Shown here piece by piece: positions 17,596-27,119 of a DNA stretch of 33,411 nt (positions are counted from its first letter, which is position 1; each line of letters opens with the position of its first letter). A model generated the notes under the pieces. It saw only the letters and a program-made list of their open reading frames with translations. It was not told the DNA's origin and searched no databases. The position numbers and the translations under genes are program-made. Source of the stretch: Melioribacteraceae bacterium (GTDB lineage Bacteria; Bacteroidota; Ignavibacteria; Ignavibacteriales; Melioribacteraceae); NCBI GenBank assembly GCA_027013735.1, contig JALWGH010000185.1:1-33411 (forward strand). The letters are read 5' to 3'.

Positions 17596-18024
17596 GGATG
17601 AATGGATAATTGGATGGTTGGATGGGATGGGTTGAATCGTTGAACAACAATCGTTTTTCTCTGTTCTCTGTTATCTGTTCTCTGAAAGGCTGTTTCTTGC
17701 CACGCAAAGAACGCAGAGGTTTTGCGCAGAGAACGCAGACAAACATTTTGCCACCCTAATTTTTCCACCACAATGAATGACGACCCCGCCACGTTAGCGG
17801 AGGCAAATGACAAATCATCTTGTCACAAATTCCCGCTCTCAATTTTCTCTGCTCTCTGTTATCTGTCCTCTGAGTGTGGCGTCTTGCTTGTCGCGCCGAG
17901 GTTAAGCGAAGCGAAAACGAAGGCGGGCATCTTGCTTCTTGCTTGTCACGGCGTAGTCCCGCAAAATGCGGGACGAAGACGGACCTGTCGCGCCGTAGTC
18001 AAGCGTAGCGCAGACGAAGGCGGA
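17596..18024. repeat. Mosaic of short repeats in a 598-base non-coding region
   Basis: The gap between the TetR gene and gatB (17514-18111) is packed with repeat modules: a GGAT-rich stretch (17596-17630), two copies of a 25-base unit (17661-17685 and 17849-17873, two mismatches), a 14-base tandem pair (17704-17717 and 17726-17739, one mismatch), and three hairpin units of the form GTCGCGCCGTAG...GACGAAGGCGGA (17890-17927, 17945-17984, 17987-18024). The middle hairpin unit has a perfect stem (GTCCCGC-AAAAT-GCGGGAC). Modules of three of these kinds recur at 27191-27413. A frame is open through here in phase with gatB, but its translation is unlike any protein. Confidence 0.75.
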
Positions 18025-18079
18025 CGTCTAACGTCTTGTTCAATTAGCATCCTTATTCTCCCCTTATTTTTCGCTTTAC

Positions 18080-18087
18080 TATATTTG
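18080..18087 (+). promoter_or_regulatory. -7 element of the gatB promoter
   Basis: TATATTTG matches TAnnTTTG. No TTTG is well placed at -33. The predicted start site, about 18092-18095, leaves a leader of roughly 20 bases to ATG 18112 and excludes longer versions of GatB. Confidence 0.5.
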
Positions 18088-18111
18088 CAAATGAATTTTA
18101 AGGAAAAACTG

Positions 18112-19545
18112 ATGTTGGAAAAATACGAAGCCGTAATAGGTCTGGAAGTTCACGCACAGCTATTAACCGAGACAAAACTTTTTTGCAGTTGTTCAACAAA
18201 ATTCGGAGCGCCGCCGAACACTAACGTTTGTCCTGTTTGTTTGGGACATCCGGGTGCGCTACCCGTATTAAACAAAAAAGCCGTTGAATATGCAGTACTA
18301 ATGGGTCTGGCAGTTAATTGCAGAATAAACAAGCGTTCCGTTTTTGCAAGGAAAAATTATTTCTACCCCGACTTACCAAAAGGTTACCAGATTTCCCAAT
18401 TTGACGAGCCGCTTTGTGAATTTGGTTTTGTGGAAATTGACAGTGGTAAAGAAAAAAGAAAAATCAGAATCAAAAGAATTCACATCGAAGAAGACGCTGG
18501 GAAATTAATTCACGACAGAGGCGGCGATTCACTTGTTGACCTAAACCGCTCGGGAACACCGTTGATTGAAATTGTTAGTGAGCCGGACATTCGAACTCCT
18601 CAAGAAGCAAGTGAATATTTGAAAACACTCAGAAAAATTGTTACCTACCTCGAAATTTGCGACGGTAATATGGAGGAAGGTTCTCTCCGCTGCGATGCAA
18701 ATATTTCCGTAAGGTTAAAGGGCAGCACAGACTTAGGCACGCGGACGGAAATTAAAAATATGAATTCCTTCAGGAATGTTGAGAAAGCCTTGCAGTTTGA
18801 AATTGAGCGGCAGGTTGAAATTCTTGAAGAAGGCGGGAAGGTTGAACAGGAAACTTTGCTGTGGGACGCCGACAATTACGAAGCACGTTCAATGAGAGGG
18901 AAAGAGGAAAGCCACGATTACCGCTACTTCCCCGAACCGGATTTACTCCCGCTTCAAATTACCGACGAATGGATTACTGAGATTAAAAACAAAATGCCCG
19001 AGTTACCGAACGCTAAAAAAGAAAGATTTCAAAAAGATTACTCCCTCCCCGAATACGACGCTGAAATTTTAACTTCTGAAAAACCGCTTGCAGATTATTT
19101 TGAAAAAGCGGCGGAAGTAACTACCGATTTCAAAGCCGTTTCCAATTGGGTGATGAGCGAAGTGTTAAAAGTTTGCAACCGCGACAAAATTTCCATTGAA
19201 GAGTTTCCCGTTCCTCCCGAAAACTTGGGTAAACTTGTCGGGTTAATTTCGAAAGGAACTATTTCCGGCAAAATTGCAAAGGACGTTTTCGAGGAAATGC
19301 TTTCAACACGACAGACGCCGGAAGAAATTGTAAAGGCAAAAAATCTTGCACAAATTAGCGACTCTTCTGCGATTGAAAAAGCGGTTGAAAAAATAATAGC
19401 AGACTTTCCCGCTCAAGTCGAACAATTCAAAAACGGGAAGGAAAAAGTTTTAGGTTTCCTTGTGGGACAAGTAATGCGGGAAACAAAAGGCAAGGCAAAC
19501 CCTCAAATGGTTAACAAAATTTTAATTGAAAAATTGAGGCAGTAA
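18112..19545 (+). CDS. gatB: Asp/Glu-tRNA amidotransferase subunit B
   Basis: A 477-residue subunit of GatCAB, which converts Asp-tRNA(Asn) and Glu-tRNA(Gln) to the amidated forms. It begins [17 protein letters not shown]. The kinase-like cradle domain is complete: Zn-site cysteines 25, 27, 40 and 43, [48 protein letters not shown] and [14 protein letters not shown]. The C-terminal helical and YqeY-like tRNA-binding part runs to residue 477. ATG 18112 is chosen over ATG 18091 because AAGGA lies ahead, the promoter would start about 18093, and the length fits the family. gatA and gatC are not in the window. The next gene begins 3 bases after the stop. Confidence 0.97.
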
Positions 19546-21650: not shown

Positions 21651-24125
21651 TTAAAATTCCTGCTGATTAAAAAGGATTTTGAACGTTGTGCCTTTGTCTT
21701 TTTCAGTGTTTGTGGATATTTCCGCACCAATTATTTCACAATATTTTTTAACGAGCGTTAACCCGAGACCGAGCCCTTGGTACTGCCTCGTAGAGCCTTC
21801 GGACTCCTGTGAAAACGGAGTAAATATTTTATTGAGAAATTCTTTTTTAATCCCTATTCCCGTGTCGCTTACTTCAAAATAAAGACGGTTTAAATTGTCC
21901 CTGCCAACAACAATGTTAACGCTTCCTTCATTTGTAAACTTCACGGCATTGTCAATCAGTTGCTCGGCTATTTTATTCACAGCGTTAAAGTCGGATTTCA
22001 AAAGTGTGTTTTTTGTGTTCTTTTTTAACGAGATTTTAATCCCTTTCTTTTCGGCTTTTTCTTTGTAAGTGTAATAGACGTTAAACAAAACGTCATCGTG
22101 AAGGTCAAACTCCCTGATTTTAGGAGAGTAGTAGTTCAACTCCATTTCGGTAACATTTAAAATTAAATCTACCGTTCGTTCAAGCCTGCGGCTGCCTTTC
22201 TTAATTGTTTCCAATTCCATTTCGTGTTTTTCTTTAAAGTCTTCGTCCATTTCTTCTTCGAGCAAAGCCAAATAATTAAAAATAATGTTTAACGGTGTTC
22301 TCATTTCGTGGGAGACTTGCGCGATGAACTCCGTTTTTAGCTTGTCCGCTGCCTCGGCTTTTTTTTGTGCAAGTTTTATTAGCTCTTCGCTCTTTCTAAT
22401 TTCCGTAATATCGTAAATGTAACCTTGCACTGCCGGCTTGCCCTCGTATTTAATGTGTTGTGCGTAAATTAATACGTTTACAAGGGTGTCATCTTGACGA
22501 ACAAATATTTCTTCTTGTCCATTAACACTTTTTTCTCCGGCAAATAGATTTTCCATCCTTTCTTTTGCAGATTGCAAATAATCCGGGTGGATAAAGCTAA
22601 AAATTTCTTTTCCGATAATGTCTTCCGCTTTTTCGTAACCAAGAGTTTTGGCAAGAGCGTCATTAGAGAAAACGATTTTCCCTTCCTGAACTATTAACAT
22701 TCCGATTGGCGAAAGGGAAATTAGTTTCCTGTATTTTTCTTCATTATCCCTGATTTCCTTCTCTGCTTTTTTTATTTCAGTCAAGTCTCTGAAAAATATC
22801 TGGATCTCGTTTGCCTCGGTTTTTTTAGCCCGTATTTCTACCGGCACCAATGCCCCGTCTTTTCTGAGCAGTTCCCTCTCCATTGAGATTTCTTGCCCGA
22901 TTTGCAATACCGAATATTGAGCCGGCTTAACTTTTAATTCTTCCTTTGTGAAAAAATTAGTAATGTGTTGATTTAACATTTCTTCTTTTTCGTACCCTGT
23001 AAGGTCAATCATTTTTTTGTTTGCTTCAATAATAATACCGTTATTGTCAAGTAATAAGATTCCGGCTAAAGCATCGTTGAAAACTCTAAAATATTTTTGC
23101 TCGGCATGGAACAGCTTTTCGCTCATTGATTTTAATCTCGTAATGTCCGCCAAAACGTAGAGTTTATAATTAACTTCGCTAACAGAAAAATCGTACGAAC
23201 TTATTGAAATAAAACTTGAAGTGCTTCTAATTGATTTAATCATTGCTTTAAAATTTTCGAACCGAGAGCCTGACAATATCTCTTTTTTTAGCTTTTCCCT
23301 TTCCGATTCGTTTTCCCAAATGTCGGCATCAATAAAATTTTCTCCCAATATGCTTTCCTTTGGCAAACCTGTAATTCTCAAAAAAGCTTTGTTTACTTCA
23401 ACGATTACGTGGTCTTCCGCTCTTGTTACAACCAAGGCGTGAGGAGAAACGTCGATTAAAATCTCATTTAGAGATTTGTCCCAAGCATACGCCCCGTTTG
23501 TCTTTTTAATACGAGCCTCAAGAAGTTTGTTTTTCTTTTCGAGGTTTTCCGTCAAGTAAATGTTTTCAATTCTTAATTTAATTAAATCGAGAGCGCTTTG
23601 TATTGCAATAATTTTCTTCCTCAAGCGGGACAAGTCATTTCTGCTTGTAACAAAAAAGAAAAATTCTTTTGTGCCGGAAAAATCAACTGCGATTGCAAGA
23701 GCGTAGGCGGGAGTAAAGTCATTAAAGTTTAACTTGAATTTTATTTCATCGTTGCCGTCAGATATTTTTCTAATGAAAAGTCCTTCTTCTGAAAATAATT
23801 TCTTAATTAGACTTCTGCCGATACTAAACTCCGAAAGCGCATTACCCTCTATTGGCAAGGATGTGTATTCCCTTGTTATTTTTGCTTTTCCTTCTTCGGA
23901 CACTTTGCAAAAAGCAACGTAGGGAAAATTTTCCGCAAGGGAAAAGCGCCTCAAGGTAAAATCAATGATGCTTTCCCTGTCGTTTAATTTCAAGAGCTCG
24001 CGGCTAACTTCTATTATCTTAGCCGTCTCGGTAGTTCGTTCGGACAAAGTTTGGTTTGTAACCTTTAACCGTTCAAGCTCCGCAAAAAGATTTTCTACCT
24101 TTTCTCTTTGTTGATAGTTGCTCAT
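21651..24125 (-). CDS. Soluble multi-PAS sensor histidine kinase with intact H-box
   Basis: An 824-residue protein without membrane segments. Order: N-terminal coiled coil (1-35), a GAF-like region (about 40-185), three PAS domains (about 218-331, 338-453, 459-581), a HisKA helix pair with the phospho-acceptor His606 in VSHEMRTPLN, and a HATPase domain with N-box EQLIDNAVKFTN, G1 DTGIGI and G2 GLGLGLTL. All catalytic parts are present. ATG 24125 is used because GAGGG precedes it; a GTG at 24137 overlaps the previous stop (GTGA), so translation is coupled either way. It is last in an operon with a PhnD-like protein and a second, degenerate kinase. No receiver-domain gene is near. Confidence 0.92.
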   Translation of the reverse strand: MSNYQQREKVENLFAELERLKVTNQTLSERTTETAKIIEVSRELLKLNDRESIIDFTLRRFSLAENFPYVAFCKVSEEGKAKITREYTSLPIEGNALSEFSIGRSLIKKLFSEEGLFIRKISDGNDEIKFKLNFNDFTPAYALAIAVDFSGTKEFFFFVTSRNDLSRLRKKIIAIQSALDLIKLRIENIYLTENLEKKNKLLEARIKKTNGAYAWDKSLNEILIDVSPHALVVTRAEDHVIVEVNKAFLRITGLPKESILGENFIDADIWENESEREKLKKEILSGSRFENFKAMIKSIRSTSSFISISSYDFSVSEVNYKLYVLADITRLKSMSEKLFHAEQKYFRVFNDALAGILLLDNNGIIIEANKKMIDLTGYEKEEMLNQHITNFFTKEELKVKPAQYSVLQIGQEISMERELLRKDGALVPVEIRAKKTEANEIQIFFRDLTEIKKAEKEIRDNEEKYRKLISLSPIGMLIVQEGKIVFSNDALAKTLGYEKAEDIIGKEIFSFIHPDYLQSAKERMENLFAGEKSVNGQEEIFVRQDDTLVNVLIYAQHIKYEGKPAVQGYIYDITEIRKSEELIKLAQKKAEAADKLKTEFIAQVSHEMRTPLNIIFNYLALLEEEMDEDFKEKHEMELETIKKGSRRLERTVDLILNVTEMELNYYSPKIREFDLHDDVLFNVYYTYKEKAEKKGIKISLKKNTKNTLLKSDFNAVNKIAEQLIDNAVKFTNEGSVNIVVGRDNLNRLYFEVSDTGIGIKKEFLNKIFTPFSQESEGSTRQYQGLGLGLTLVKKYCEIIGAEISTNTEKDKGTTFKILFNQQEF

Positions 24126-24133
24126 CTTTTCCC

Positions 24134-26191
24134 TCACGAAAATATTAGTCTGAAAACACTTCCCTTATTCTTTTTGCTTTCAACCTCAAGTTTGATATTG
24201 TTAATTTCGCAATACTTTTTAACGAGCGCAAGCCCCATTCCGATTCCACCTGTCATGTTGCTTTCGTAAACATCAATTGAAAAAGGTTTAAAAATATTTT
24301 GCATAAATTCTTCCGACATTCCTATTCCGGTATCCTTAACCTCGGAAACAACGTGCCCGTCTTTTACAAAAAGGGTTACTTCAACGCTTCCTTCGGGTGT
24401 GTATTTTATTGCGTTGTCAATAAGGTTTAAGTAAATATTTCTCAAAGAATTAATATCACCTTGAACTGAAACGTTTTCTGCTTCATTGTTAATTTTAAAA
24501 CGCAAGCCTTTTCTTTCTGCTTCGGGTTTTAATTTCTGAAATACTTCAAGAATAACCTCCTCAAACAAATCAATGTAATCAATTACAGGTTTGTAATCGC
24601 CAAGTTCTATTTCGGCGTAATTTAGCACAAGCTCGGTGTTCCGCATTATTCGGATTCCGTTTTTCTGTAAATTCTGAAGAATATAATTGACTTCCCCATC
24701 TTCCTCCGCAGACATATATTTCAGTAAGAGTTTACCGTATTTAAGCGAGGATTTAACAGGTACTTCAATTTCCTGATAAATCTGTTTAAGGAATCTTCCT
24801 TTCATTGCGTCGGCGGCTTCGGCTCTTTCTTTTGCTTCTTTTAATAATTTCTTTGCTTTCACCTCCTCTGTAATGTCTTTCTGAATTGCCAAAAAGCCAA
24901 TTATTTCGCCGTCGGAAATAATAGGCGAAGCCGATGCGGCTACGGTAATTAACTTACCGTCTTTGGTTTTGTTTACAATTTCTCCCGTAAATGTCTCTTT
25001 GCTAAGCAAAGTATTCCAAAGTTTTTCGTAAACTTTTGGGGGATGTTTGCCTGATTTTAATATCCTTGGAGTTTTACCAAGCACTTCCTTGGGCTCGTAG
25101 CCGTAAAGTTTCTGAAAACCTTGATTTACAAAGTCAATTTTGCCGTCAATATCCGTAATAAATACCGCTTCTTCTAACTTTTCTATTCCAAGCTTTAATT
25201 TGAATAATTCTTCCTCTTTAGCCTTTAATTCGGTAATGTCAACGTTGTACTCAATAAGTTGAATGAGTTCGCCCGATTCGTCAAAGACAGGATAACCGTA
25301 AATCCGGAAGATTTTTTCAGCGCCTAATTTATCCCGATGTTTATGTTCAACCACACTGGGCTTGCCGGTCTCTTTTGCAATTTTTAATGGACAGGGGTAA
25401 TTTTCTCCACTGCACGGCTCAGGTAATCCGTGAGTTTCCCAATGGCAGTAGATTTTGTTCCGCCCTATTTCCAATTGGGACGCTGGATTTGCGTAAACTA
25501 TTGAATAATCAAGGGCATCTATTACATAAAAAGGATTTGTTACTGTTTTCATTACTTTTTCAAGGAAGTCGCTTTTCTCACGTGTTTCTTTTTCCAGCTC
25601 TTTTCTTTTTCTAACTTCTTCTTGAAGGTCATCATAAGCTTTTCTTAACTCCTGGTTTTTATTATTTAAACTTTCTAATGTTCTTTTTCTGACGAGATAT
25701 TCTTTGTTGAGTATTAAAAGTAGGATGCTCGAAGCAGTAATAATTACTAACAAAACAAAAAACAGGTATAAAGTATTGATGTAAAGATATTCCGTGGTAA
25801 ATGTAATGGTTAATATTGCTTTGCCCCTGTAAGAATAATGTATTGAAATTTTCTTTTTTAGGTAATGCTCGGGATCTTTTATGTTTGTTTTTTGAAATAT
25901 AACAAACTTATTTTTTGAAACTAACGAAATACTAGCGCAAGAATGTTTTTTTATAAGCATATATTTATTCAAATAAGAACGGGCTCCTGTGTAATCACCC
26001 TTTTGTAAATAATCTTTTAATGTTACTATTACAATTGAAAGATTAGTATTAAAATTTTTTGCAGCCTTTTTCTTTTGTAGATTAAAATAATAAAATAAAG
26101 TTCCCCCACCTACTAACACTTGAAAAAAAATGAGTCCCCAAACTATAAGCCTGCTTTTTTCTTTTTGCAATATTTTTTTTAGACTAAACAT
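24134..26191 (-). CDS. Membrane PAS sensor kinase lacking the phospho-acceptor His (pseudo-histidine kinase)
   Basis: A 685-residue inner-membrane protein: helix 1 (about 14-36), an external domain of about 100 residues, helix 2 (about 138-161), a coiled coil (163-207), PAS A (about 208-322, with Cys249, Cys260 and Cys267), PAS B (about 330-442), a DHp-like helix pair and a HATPase domain. In the DHp helix the usual SHEIRTPLN reads YQEIEVPVK, so His is Gln473 (codon CAG at 24773-24775). The R-T pair after it is also lost. The ATP site looks intact: NLIDNAIKYT, DTGIGM, GGIGMGLAL. It cannot autophosphorylate at the normal position, but may bind ATP and pair with the downstream kinase. It begins 8 bases after the PhnD-like gene. 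Confidence 0.9.
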   Translation of the reverse strand: MFSLKKILQKEKSRLIVWGLIFFQVLVGGGTLFYYFNLQKKKAAKNFNTNLSIVIVTLKDYLQKGDYTGARSYLNKYMLIKKHSCASISLVSKNKFVIFQKTNIKDPEHYLKKKISIHYSYRGKAILTITFTTEYLYINTLYLFFVLLVIITASSILLLILNKEYLVRKRTLESLNNKNQELRKAYDDLQEEVRKRKELEKETREKSDFLEKVMKTVTNPFYVIDALDYSIVYANPASQLEIGRNKIYCHWETHGLPEPCSGENYPCPLKIAKETGKPSVVEHKHRDKLGAEKIFRIYGYPVFDESGELIQLIEYNVDITELKAKEEELFKLKLGIEKLEEAVFITDIDGKIDFVNQGFQKLYGYEPKEVLGKTPRILKSGKHPPKVYEKLWNTLLSKETFTGEIVNKTKDGKLITVAASASPIISDGEIIGFLAIQKDITEEVKAKKLLKEAKERAEAADAMKGRFLKQIYQEIEVPVKSSLKYGKLLLKYMSAEEDGEVNYILQNLQKNGIRIMRNTELVLNYAEIELGDYKPVIDYIDLFEEVILEVFQKLKPEAERKGLRFKINNEAENVSVQGDINSLRNIYLNLIDNAIKYTPEGSVEVTLFVKDGHVVSEVKDTGIGMSEEFMQNIFKPFSIDVYESNMTGGIGMGLALVKKYCEINNIKLEVESKKNKGSVFRLIFS

Positions 26192-26199
26192 TATTAAAA

Positions 26200-27042
26200 T
26201 TACTTCATATATTCTCTTAAAACGTCATAATTCTTGTCGTTCGCAGGTTCTATTCCCGTTGCTTCCGAGTTTATTGATTTCAAAACATTTAAGCCTTCCT
26301 TGGTTTTATTCAGGTCAAAAAATGCTTGTTGTATTTTGCGAAAAAACTTATTAGGCATAGTCCTTTTAACCAAGAACAAATGCTCAGGCATTAGAGGAGT
26401 TGTCGCAATTACTTTTATTGCATTGTTTTTGAATCTGTTGTAAACTTCTTCTTTAACCGCCCCCGCGTCATAGTCTCCGGCAAGAATTCCGTAAACCACA
26501 TTCTCGTGGGTTCCAACAAAATTGTAGTATTTTAAAGAACTTAATTTTACTCCTGCTTTTAGCAGCATTTTCTTAGGGACAATAAATCCCATCGTAGATT
26601 CTTTTTGTACAAAAGCAAAGGATTTGCCAATTAAATCTTTTATTGAAAATATTGGTGCATCTTTAGAAGCAATAATTTTTCCCCTAAAGAATGGCTTACC
26701 GTTAACATCCAAAGTCCCCACTGTCTTTTGATAGCCATATTCATTTAGAAGTAAAACGTATTCGGAGGGACCAACAAATGCAATATCAACTTTATTTAAT
26801 CCGATACTTTTAATATGGTTTGCATAAGAGTAGCCAATTTTAATAATTATTCCTCTTTTTAATTTTTTAGAAAGGTAAATTCTTAAAGGCGAGAATCTTT
26901 TAATAATTTCTTTTCTTGACAGATAGGGATGAATGCCAAAAACAAGGTAATCCTGAGCCGTAGTGGTTGTAAACCCCAATAAAATCAGAGTTAAAACAAG
27001 AATGCTTTTTTTAAAACCACGTTTCGGCTTGACAGGCATCAT
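26200..27042 (-). CDS. PhnD-like periplasmic substrate-binding protein
   Basis: A 280-residue exported protein of the phosphate/phosphite/phosphonate-binding (PhnD) family. After a basic stretch and signal (SILVLTLILLGFTTTTAQ) come DYLVFGIHPYLSRKEIIKRF, the ligand-loop part VDIAFVGPSEYVLL and the lobe-two part GDYDAGAVKEEVYNRF, all characteristic. ATG 27042 is chosen because a promoter places the transcript start at about 27081, which excludes an upstream TTG at 27090. No permease or ATPase gene follows; instead two sensor kinases do. It is therefore probably a sensory co-receptor that presents a ligand to the membrane kinase rather than a transport component. PhnD-family ligands are diverse, so phosphonate is not assured. 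Confidence 0.87.
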   Translation of the reverse strand: MMPVKPKRGFKKSILVLTLILLGFTTTTAQDYLVFGIHPYLSRKEIIKRFSPLRIYLSKKLKRGIIIKIGYSYANHIKSIGLNKVDIAFVGPSEYVLLLNEYGYQKTVGTLDVNGKPFFRGKIIASKDAPIFSIKDLIGKSFAFVQKESTMGFIVPKKMLLKAGVKLSSLKYYNFVGTHENVVYGILAGDYDAGAVKEEVYNRFKNNAIKVIATTPLMPEHLFLVKRTMPNKFFRKIQQAFFDLNKTKEGLNVLKSINSEATGIEPANDKNYDVLREYMK

Positions 27043-27087: not shown

Positions 27088-27119
27088 CAAAATTATGGAA
27101 TCGAGTAGATAAATTCAAA
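27088..27119 (-). promoter_or_regulatory. Bacteroidota-type promoter of the PhnD-kinase operon
   Basis: On the minus strand, TTTG (27116-27119), 20 bases, then TAATTTTG (27088-27095), an exact fit to TTTG-N19-21-TAnnTTTG. Start site about 27081, leader about 39 bases. Confidence 0.7.

Follow-up and report, generated by a model that had tools for sequence, protein, structure and literature searches.

Does a membrane histidine kinase that has lost its phospho-acceptor His, and that is encoded next to a kinase that has kept it, represent a decaying gene or a maintained protein, and if maintained, how might it act? This question is raised by a stretch of 33,411 nucleotides from a Melioribacteraceae bacterium (contig JALWGH010000185.1), which we refer to as the window. 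We compared the genome it comes from (G000) with the two other genomes of the genus in our set (G001 and G002).

A Membrane Kinase without the Acceptor Histidine

The gene lies at positions 24134–26191 on the minus strand, as do the two neighboring genes of the cluster described later; an earlier note on this DNA had omitted the strand. As that note had it, the frame runs undamaged and without a stop over 685 residues. Full-length orthologs are present in both G001 and G002 (L054 5885–7945 and L055 3616–5691; 55% and 42% identity), and Pfam analysis revealed PAS domains and a HATPase_c domain (e value 9e-22), with no score for the HisKA domain model. According to hydropathy in all three orthologs, residues 1–168 (25688–26191) consist of a transmembrane helix, a periplasmic domain of approximately 105 residues, and a second transmembrane helix. 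This is the least conserved part of the protein, with a per-domain identity of 21–38% among the three orthologs, and a single-sequence model of the periplasmic domain was too poor for use (pLDDT 61). It is followed by PAS domain 1 (residues 206–330; 25202–25576), PAS domain 2 (PAS_9, NifL-like by sequence; residues 331–445; 24857–25201), a DHp region (residues 446–545; 24557–24856) that forms two long helices in the model described later, and the ATP-binding (CA) domain (residues 546–685; 24137–24556). PAS domain 1 contains six residues that are invariant in the three orthologs (Cys249, His254, Cys260, Cys267, His283, and His285) and may serve to sense a metal or the redox state; PAS domains of two further genomes (G035, L135; G046, L136) have a related C-x4-H..PC..C pattern, and no relatives of PAS domain 1 were found in the PDB.

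In alignments with active kinases and with HK853, the motif QIYQEIEVPVK in the first DHp helix coincides with the H-box, which places Gln473, encoded by CAG (24773–24775), at the position of the acceptor His, as the earlier note had proposed. The residues that follow are Glu474, Ile475, Glu476 (usually Arg), Val477 (usually Thr), and Pro478. Across 81 aligned kinase cores, which were picked by similarity and are not a census from which a genome-wide rate could be read, the acceptor column is His in all 78 other kinases, and the only three exceptions are the three orthologs. G001 encodes Glu (GAG) and G002 encodes Asp (GAC) at this position, and EIEVP takes the place of the EIRTP of active kinases in each of the three orthologs. 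Given the GAG and GAC codons of the other two species, the fact that a single base separates CAG from a His codon means little. Neither an ortholog with the acceptor His nor a frameshift in this gene was found in the three genomes. The Thr of the H-box region serves the phosphatase action of HisKA kinases, and the residue at this position is Val in all three orthologs. Acceptor substitutions, Gln and Asp among them, occur in approximately 1% of histidine kinases according to a commentary by two DivL authors (PMC5361649). A single case would therefore be unremarkable, and it is the conservation of the loss that counts. The protein lacks the acceptor His in DHp helix 1 that marks active HisKA-type kinases, and it combines what defines a pseudo-histidine kinase, that is, a kinase fold and a substituted acceptor whose substitution is conserved in orthologs.

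The ATP site had been described as wholly intact, which holds for the N box, the G1 box, and the core G2 glycines of the CA domain but overstates the case because the lid is degenerate. Asn593, Asp620, Gly622, Gly624, Gly651, and Gly653 are present in all three orthologs, and among the 21 columns that are conserved in at least 85% of the active kinases, nearly all those of the ATP core are kept, with the acceptor His lost in all three. The lid, however, is without its usual basic and polar residues: Arg, present in 51 of the 78 active kinases, is replaced by Asn, Gly, or Val, and Gln, present in 50 of 78, by Ile, Ile, or Thr. In G001, the first Gly of the G2 box is Ser. Nucleotide binding by this domain is plausible from these residues, and catalysis is doubtful. 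A model of the DHp-CA region built from five sequences (pLDDT 83, with confidence below 50 in the lid only) matches HK853, GacS, DivL, and RetS, including DivL 4q20 with a TM score of 0.73. The kinase fold is predicted to be retained, and the model does not discriminate between active and inactive kinases.

Maintenance of the Gene within the Genus

The three orthologs form one clade with a support of 99 in the kinase tree. No full-length orthologs were identified outside the genus among 79 genomes of the family and 396 genomes of the phylum, where matches were mostly confined to PAS-type stretches, and a scan of genome contigs for orthologs returned distant kinases only. Because the orthologs form one clade, the loss of the His is most simply explained as a single event that preceded the radiation of the genus.

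Synonymous sites are saturated among the three species, and all three frames are intact. Between G000 and G001, dN amounts to 0.34 for the pseudokinase and to 0.33 and 0.29, respectively, for the adjacent active kinase and for the protein encoded upstream (referred to as X); because dS is saturated, we do not quote dN/dS ratios. For the same pair of genomes, the CA domain is the best conserved part of the pseudokinase (68% identity). The DHp-CA region has evolved approximately 1.6–1.7 times faster than that of the active kinase (tree paths of 0.64 versus 0.37 and of 2.0 versus 1.27), as would be expected if selection for catalysis has ended. Saturated synonymous sites together with a rate of protein change that matches that of the active neighbor argue for a gene that is maintained and not decaying, and the earlier view of this protein as a maintained pseudokinase is well supported by them, by the absence of the His from three of three orthologs, and by the common EIEVP motif. 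One might also take the missing acceptor His and the faster DHp-CA rate as marks of a decaying gene or of an error in sequencing or assembly. This reading is effectively ruled out by the agreement of three independent genomes, by frames that remain intact at saturated synonymous divergence, by the shared EIEVP, and by the retention of the ATP-core residues.

An Operon with a Binding Protein and a Soluble Kinase

The gene that adjoins the pseudokinase gene downstream (21651–24137) encodes, as had been claimed, a kinase with a normal acceptor His: its HisKA domain (22140–22337) is scored by Pfam and contains the H-box SHEMRTPLN. Pfam and hydropathy analyses additionally reveal three PAS domains and no transmembrane segment in this partner kinase, compared with two such segments in the pseudokinase. 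Its start is either a GTG that overlaps the stop of the pseudokinase gene by 4 nt or an ATG at 24125, a few nt beyond that stop and behind GAGGG. Both the solubility of this kinase and gene X at the head of the operon were missed earlier. X (26200–27042) is a periplasmic binding protein of the PhnD/PtxB/AioX/ArrX class with a signal peptide and without cysteine; it matches PF12974 with an e value of 8e-62 and scores above the cut-off of TIGR01098. Its best relatives in the PDB are PtxB, a phosphite binder, followed by PhnD, ArrX, and AioX. X has its ATG start at 27042, and its gene lies 8 nt from the pseudokinase gene or overlaps it by 4 nt; an alternative, longer frame of X begins with TTG at 27090. 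Elsewhere in the window, the listed gatB frame (17722–19545) has a long and doubtful TTG extension, and comparison with G001 puts the start approximately 390 nt further in.

G000 and G001 both show the complete order X, pseudokinase, and kinase, and orthologs of X are found at the matching place in both G001 and G002. The contig with the pseudokinase gene of G002 ends eight codons into the next frame, and the sole close homolog of the partner kinase in that genome (46% identity) runs from the edge of contig C41, from which we infer that the two genes are adjacent across the contig gap. The kinase–pseudokinase gene pair is real, and its order is kept in at least two species and probably in three, a co-occurrence that is based on three draft genomes, one of them with 7% contamination. 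No receiver or response regulator gene is present in the cluster. Contig C104 of G000 (L056 702–5044) encodes a triplet of kinase, receiver, and kinase in which both kinases have a normal His.

The number of PAS domains in the partner kinase varies among the genomes from one to at least three, and this kinase may therefore have inputs of its own. The G001 bin includes two versions of it (L092 on contig C380 and L054 on contig C112), which differ in PAS content (a single domain in one, at least three in the other), are 92% alike over their common part, and are each encoded beside the same acyl-CoA-synthetase-like gene; these probably represent two strains in one bin. In the G002 partner (L093 6–3152), one additional PAS domain is similar to PAS domain 1 of the pseudokinase (34%) but differs in its Cys pattern, as though the domain had been transferred between the two genes.

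AioX and ArrX are the X components of X-S-R systems (PMC5908839), in which, as here, a PF12974 periplasmic binding protein adjoins a membrane histidine kinase, and X is a sequence relative of both. The present cluster also has its PF12974 gene directly upstream of the membrane kinase gene, but its S is without an acceptor and there is no operon-encoded R for S to phosphorylate; a second, soluble kinase follows instead. Arsenite sensing of the AioX type, which involves Cys106, was considered and rejected because X has no Cys and its orthologs have none in common. At nine further loci in the order, the gene directly after that of an X homolog encodes a kinase with an intact His, showing that an X gene beside a kinase gene is a recurrent pairing. 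Within the stretch read, eight of these nine kinases carry AHEINNPLNG/L, and another X homolog in G000 (contig C194) is also encoded near a kinase of this type. These kinases belong to another subclass in the tree, and the pseudokinase therefore does not descend directly from them.

A Possible Relay from Binding Protein to Soluble Kinase

We propose, with a probability of approximately 60%, that the three genes encode one sensory unit in which the dead membrane S relays the signal of X to the soluble kinase. Because the partner kinase has no transmembrane segment and the pseudokinase has two, the pseudokinase is the only protein in the cluster that can connect X with the active kinase, and because it has neither an acceptor His nor the phosphatase Thr, which is Val here, it can act only by contact. 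We infer that secreted X, as a member of an oxyanion- or phosphonate-binding class, would take up its ligand and dock on the periplasmic domain of the pseudokinase, which itself would neither accept phosphate on a His nor carry out dephosphorylation by the usual route. The two PAS domains and the DHp helices would then relay the change to the soluble kinase, most likely by direct helix contact in a heterodimer or in a complex of two dimers that sets the activity of that kinase, and the soluble kinase would subsequently phosphorylate a response regulator encoded elsewhere. The outside signal is thus probably passed on by contact and not by the chemistry of the pseudokinase, and the system may be a variant X-S system whose transmembrane S is catalytically dead and serves as an allosteric adaptor. 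Our more specific suggestion that the dead kinase is a dedicated adaptor, which couples ligand binding outside to control of the soluble kinase by DHp contact alone, is tentative. Points that speak against the relay are the variable PAS content of the partner, the faster change of the DHp-CA region of the pseudokinase, and the small number of draft genomes in which the genes co-occur. Control of one sensor kinase by another via a heterodimer is known from RetS and GacS; unlike the proteins described here, both are hybrid kinases that also homodimerize and, to our knowledge, their genes are not paired in one operon.

Other readings of the same pair have to be weighed against this relay. FasB and FasC of group A Streptococcus are likewise two kinase-like proteins from one operon, one of them a proposed pseudokinase, that form a heterodimeric pair (PMC12675982). 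In a complementing heterodimer such as that proposed for them, catalysis would be shared and the CA domain of the pseudokinase would phosphorylate the partner His in trans, for which one could cite the retention of the N, G1, and core G2 residues by every ortholog and the high conservation of the CA domain between G000 and G001. That domain has nevertheless lost the lid Arg and Gln in every ortholog and one G2 Gly in G001, and the partner has a complete CA domain of its own, so that no division of labor is needed. The Fas case is moreover the reverse, in that the Fas pseudokinase is the one that carries the His, with FasC keeping the His and having a dispensable CA domain, whereas the pseudokinase here has no His and its partner has both parts, and the Fas regulator is encoded within its operon and none is encoded in this cluster. 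We regard shared catalysis as rather unlikely. It is distinctly unlikely that the DHp region binds a phosphorylated response regulator and conveys the state of that regulator to the partner in the manner of DivL of Caulobacter, the comparison offered in the earlier note. Among pseudo-histidine kinases, DivL has been studied in most depth; it is also PAS-rich and HisKA-type with the acceptor replaced (Tyr, or Ala in one ortholog), and it acts on the active kinase CckA, and the DHp-CA model fits it as well as it fits active kinases. Binding of DivK~P requires Arg553 of DivL, three residues after the acceptor position (H+3), but this position is Glu476 or an equivalent Glu in all three orthologs, and the cluster includes no receiver gene; DivL also differs from the pseudokinase in that only the latter is linked to a periplasmic binding protein and placed in an operon with an active kinase.

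The pseudokinase might also act alone or with another kinase, its neighbor sharing nothing but expression, and the differences in domain content of the partner among genomes would agree with this. Genes that overlap or nearly overlap, in an order conserved in at least two and probably three species, make such independence quite improbable. Phosphorylation of another helix residue is suggested by His at positions 466 and 472 in G001 and at 467 in G002; because these lie off the acceptor position, are not common to all three orthologs, and have no counterpart in G000, whose DHp region contains no His at all, this is very unlikely indeed.

The relay from X through the pseudokinase to the soluble kinase remains our preferred reading. 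At the locus itself, the gene of a conserved pseudo-histidine kinase is flanked by those of a periplasmic binding protein and a soluble kinase. A partner is known for few bacterial pseudo-histidine kinases and is usually hard to identify; here, gene order gives both a likely partner and an input protein, in a cluster small enough to be rebuilt in E. coli. With such a system, one could test whether a kinase fold that lacks catalysis is able to relay a signal across the membrane to a different kinase, and whether the change of H to Q, E, or D together with that of T to V locks the DHp domain in one signaling state.
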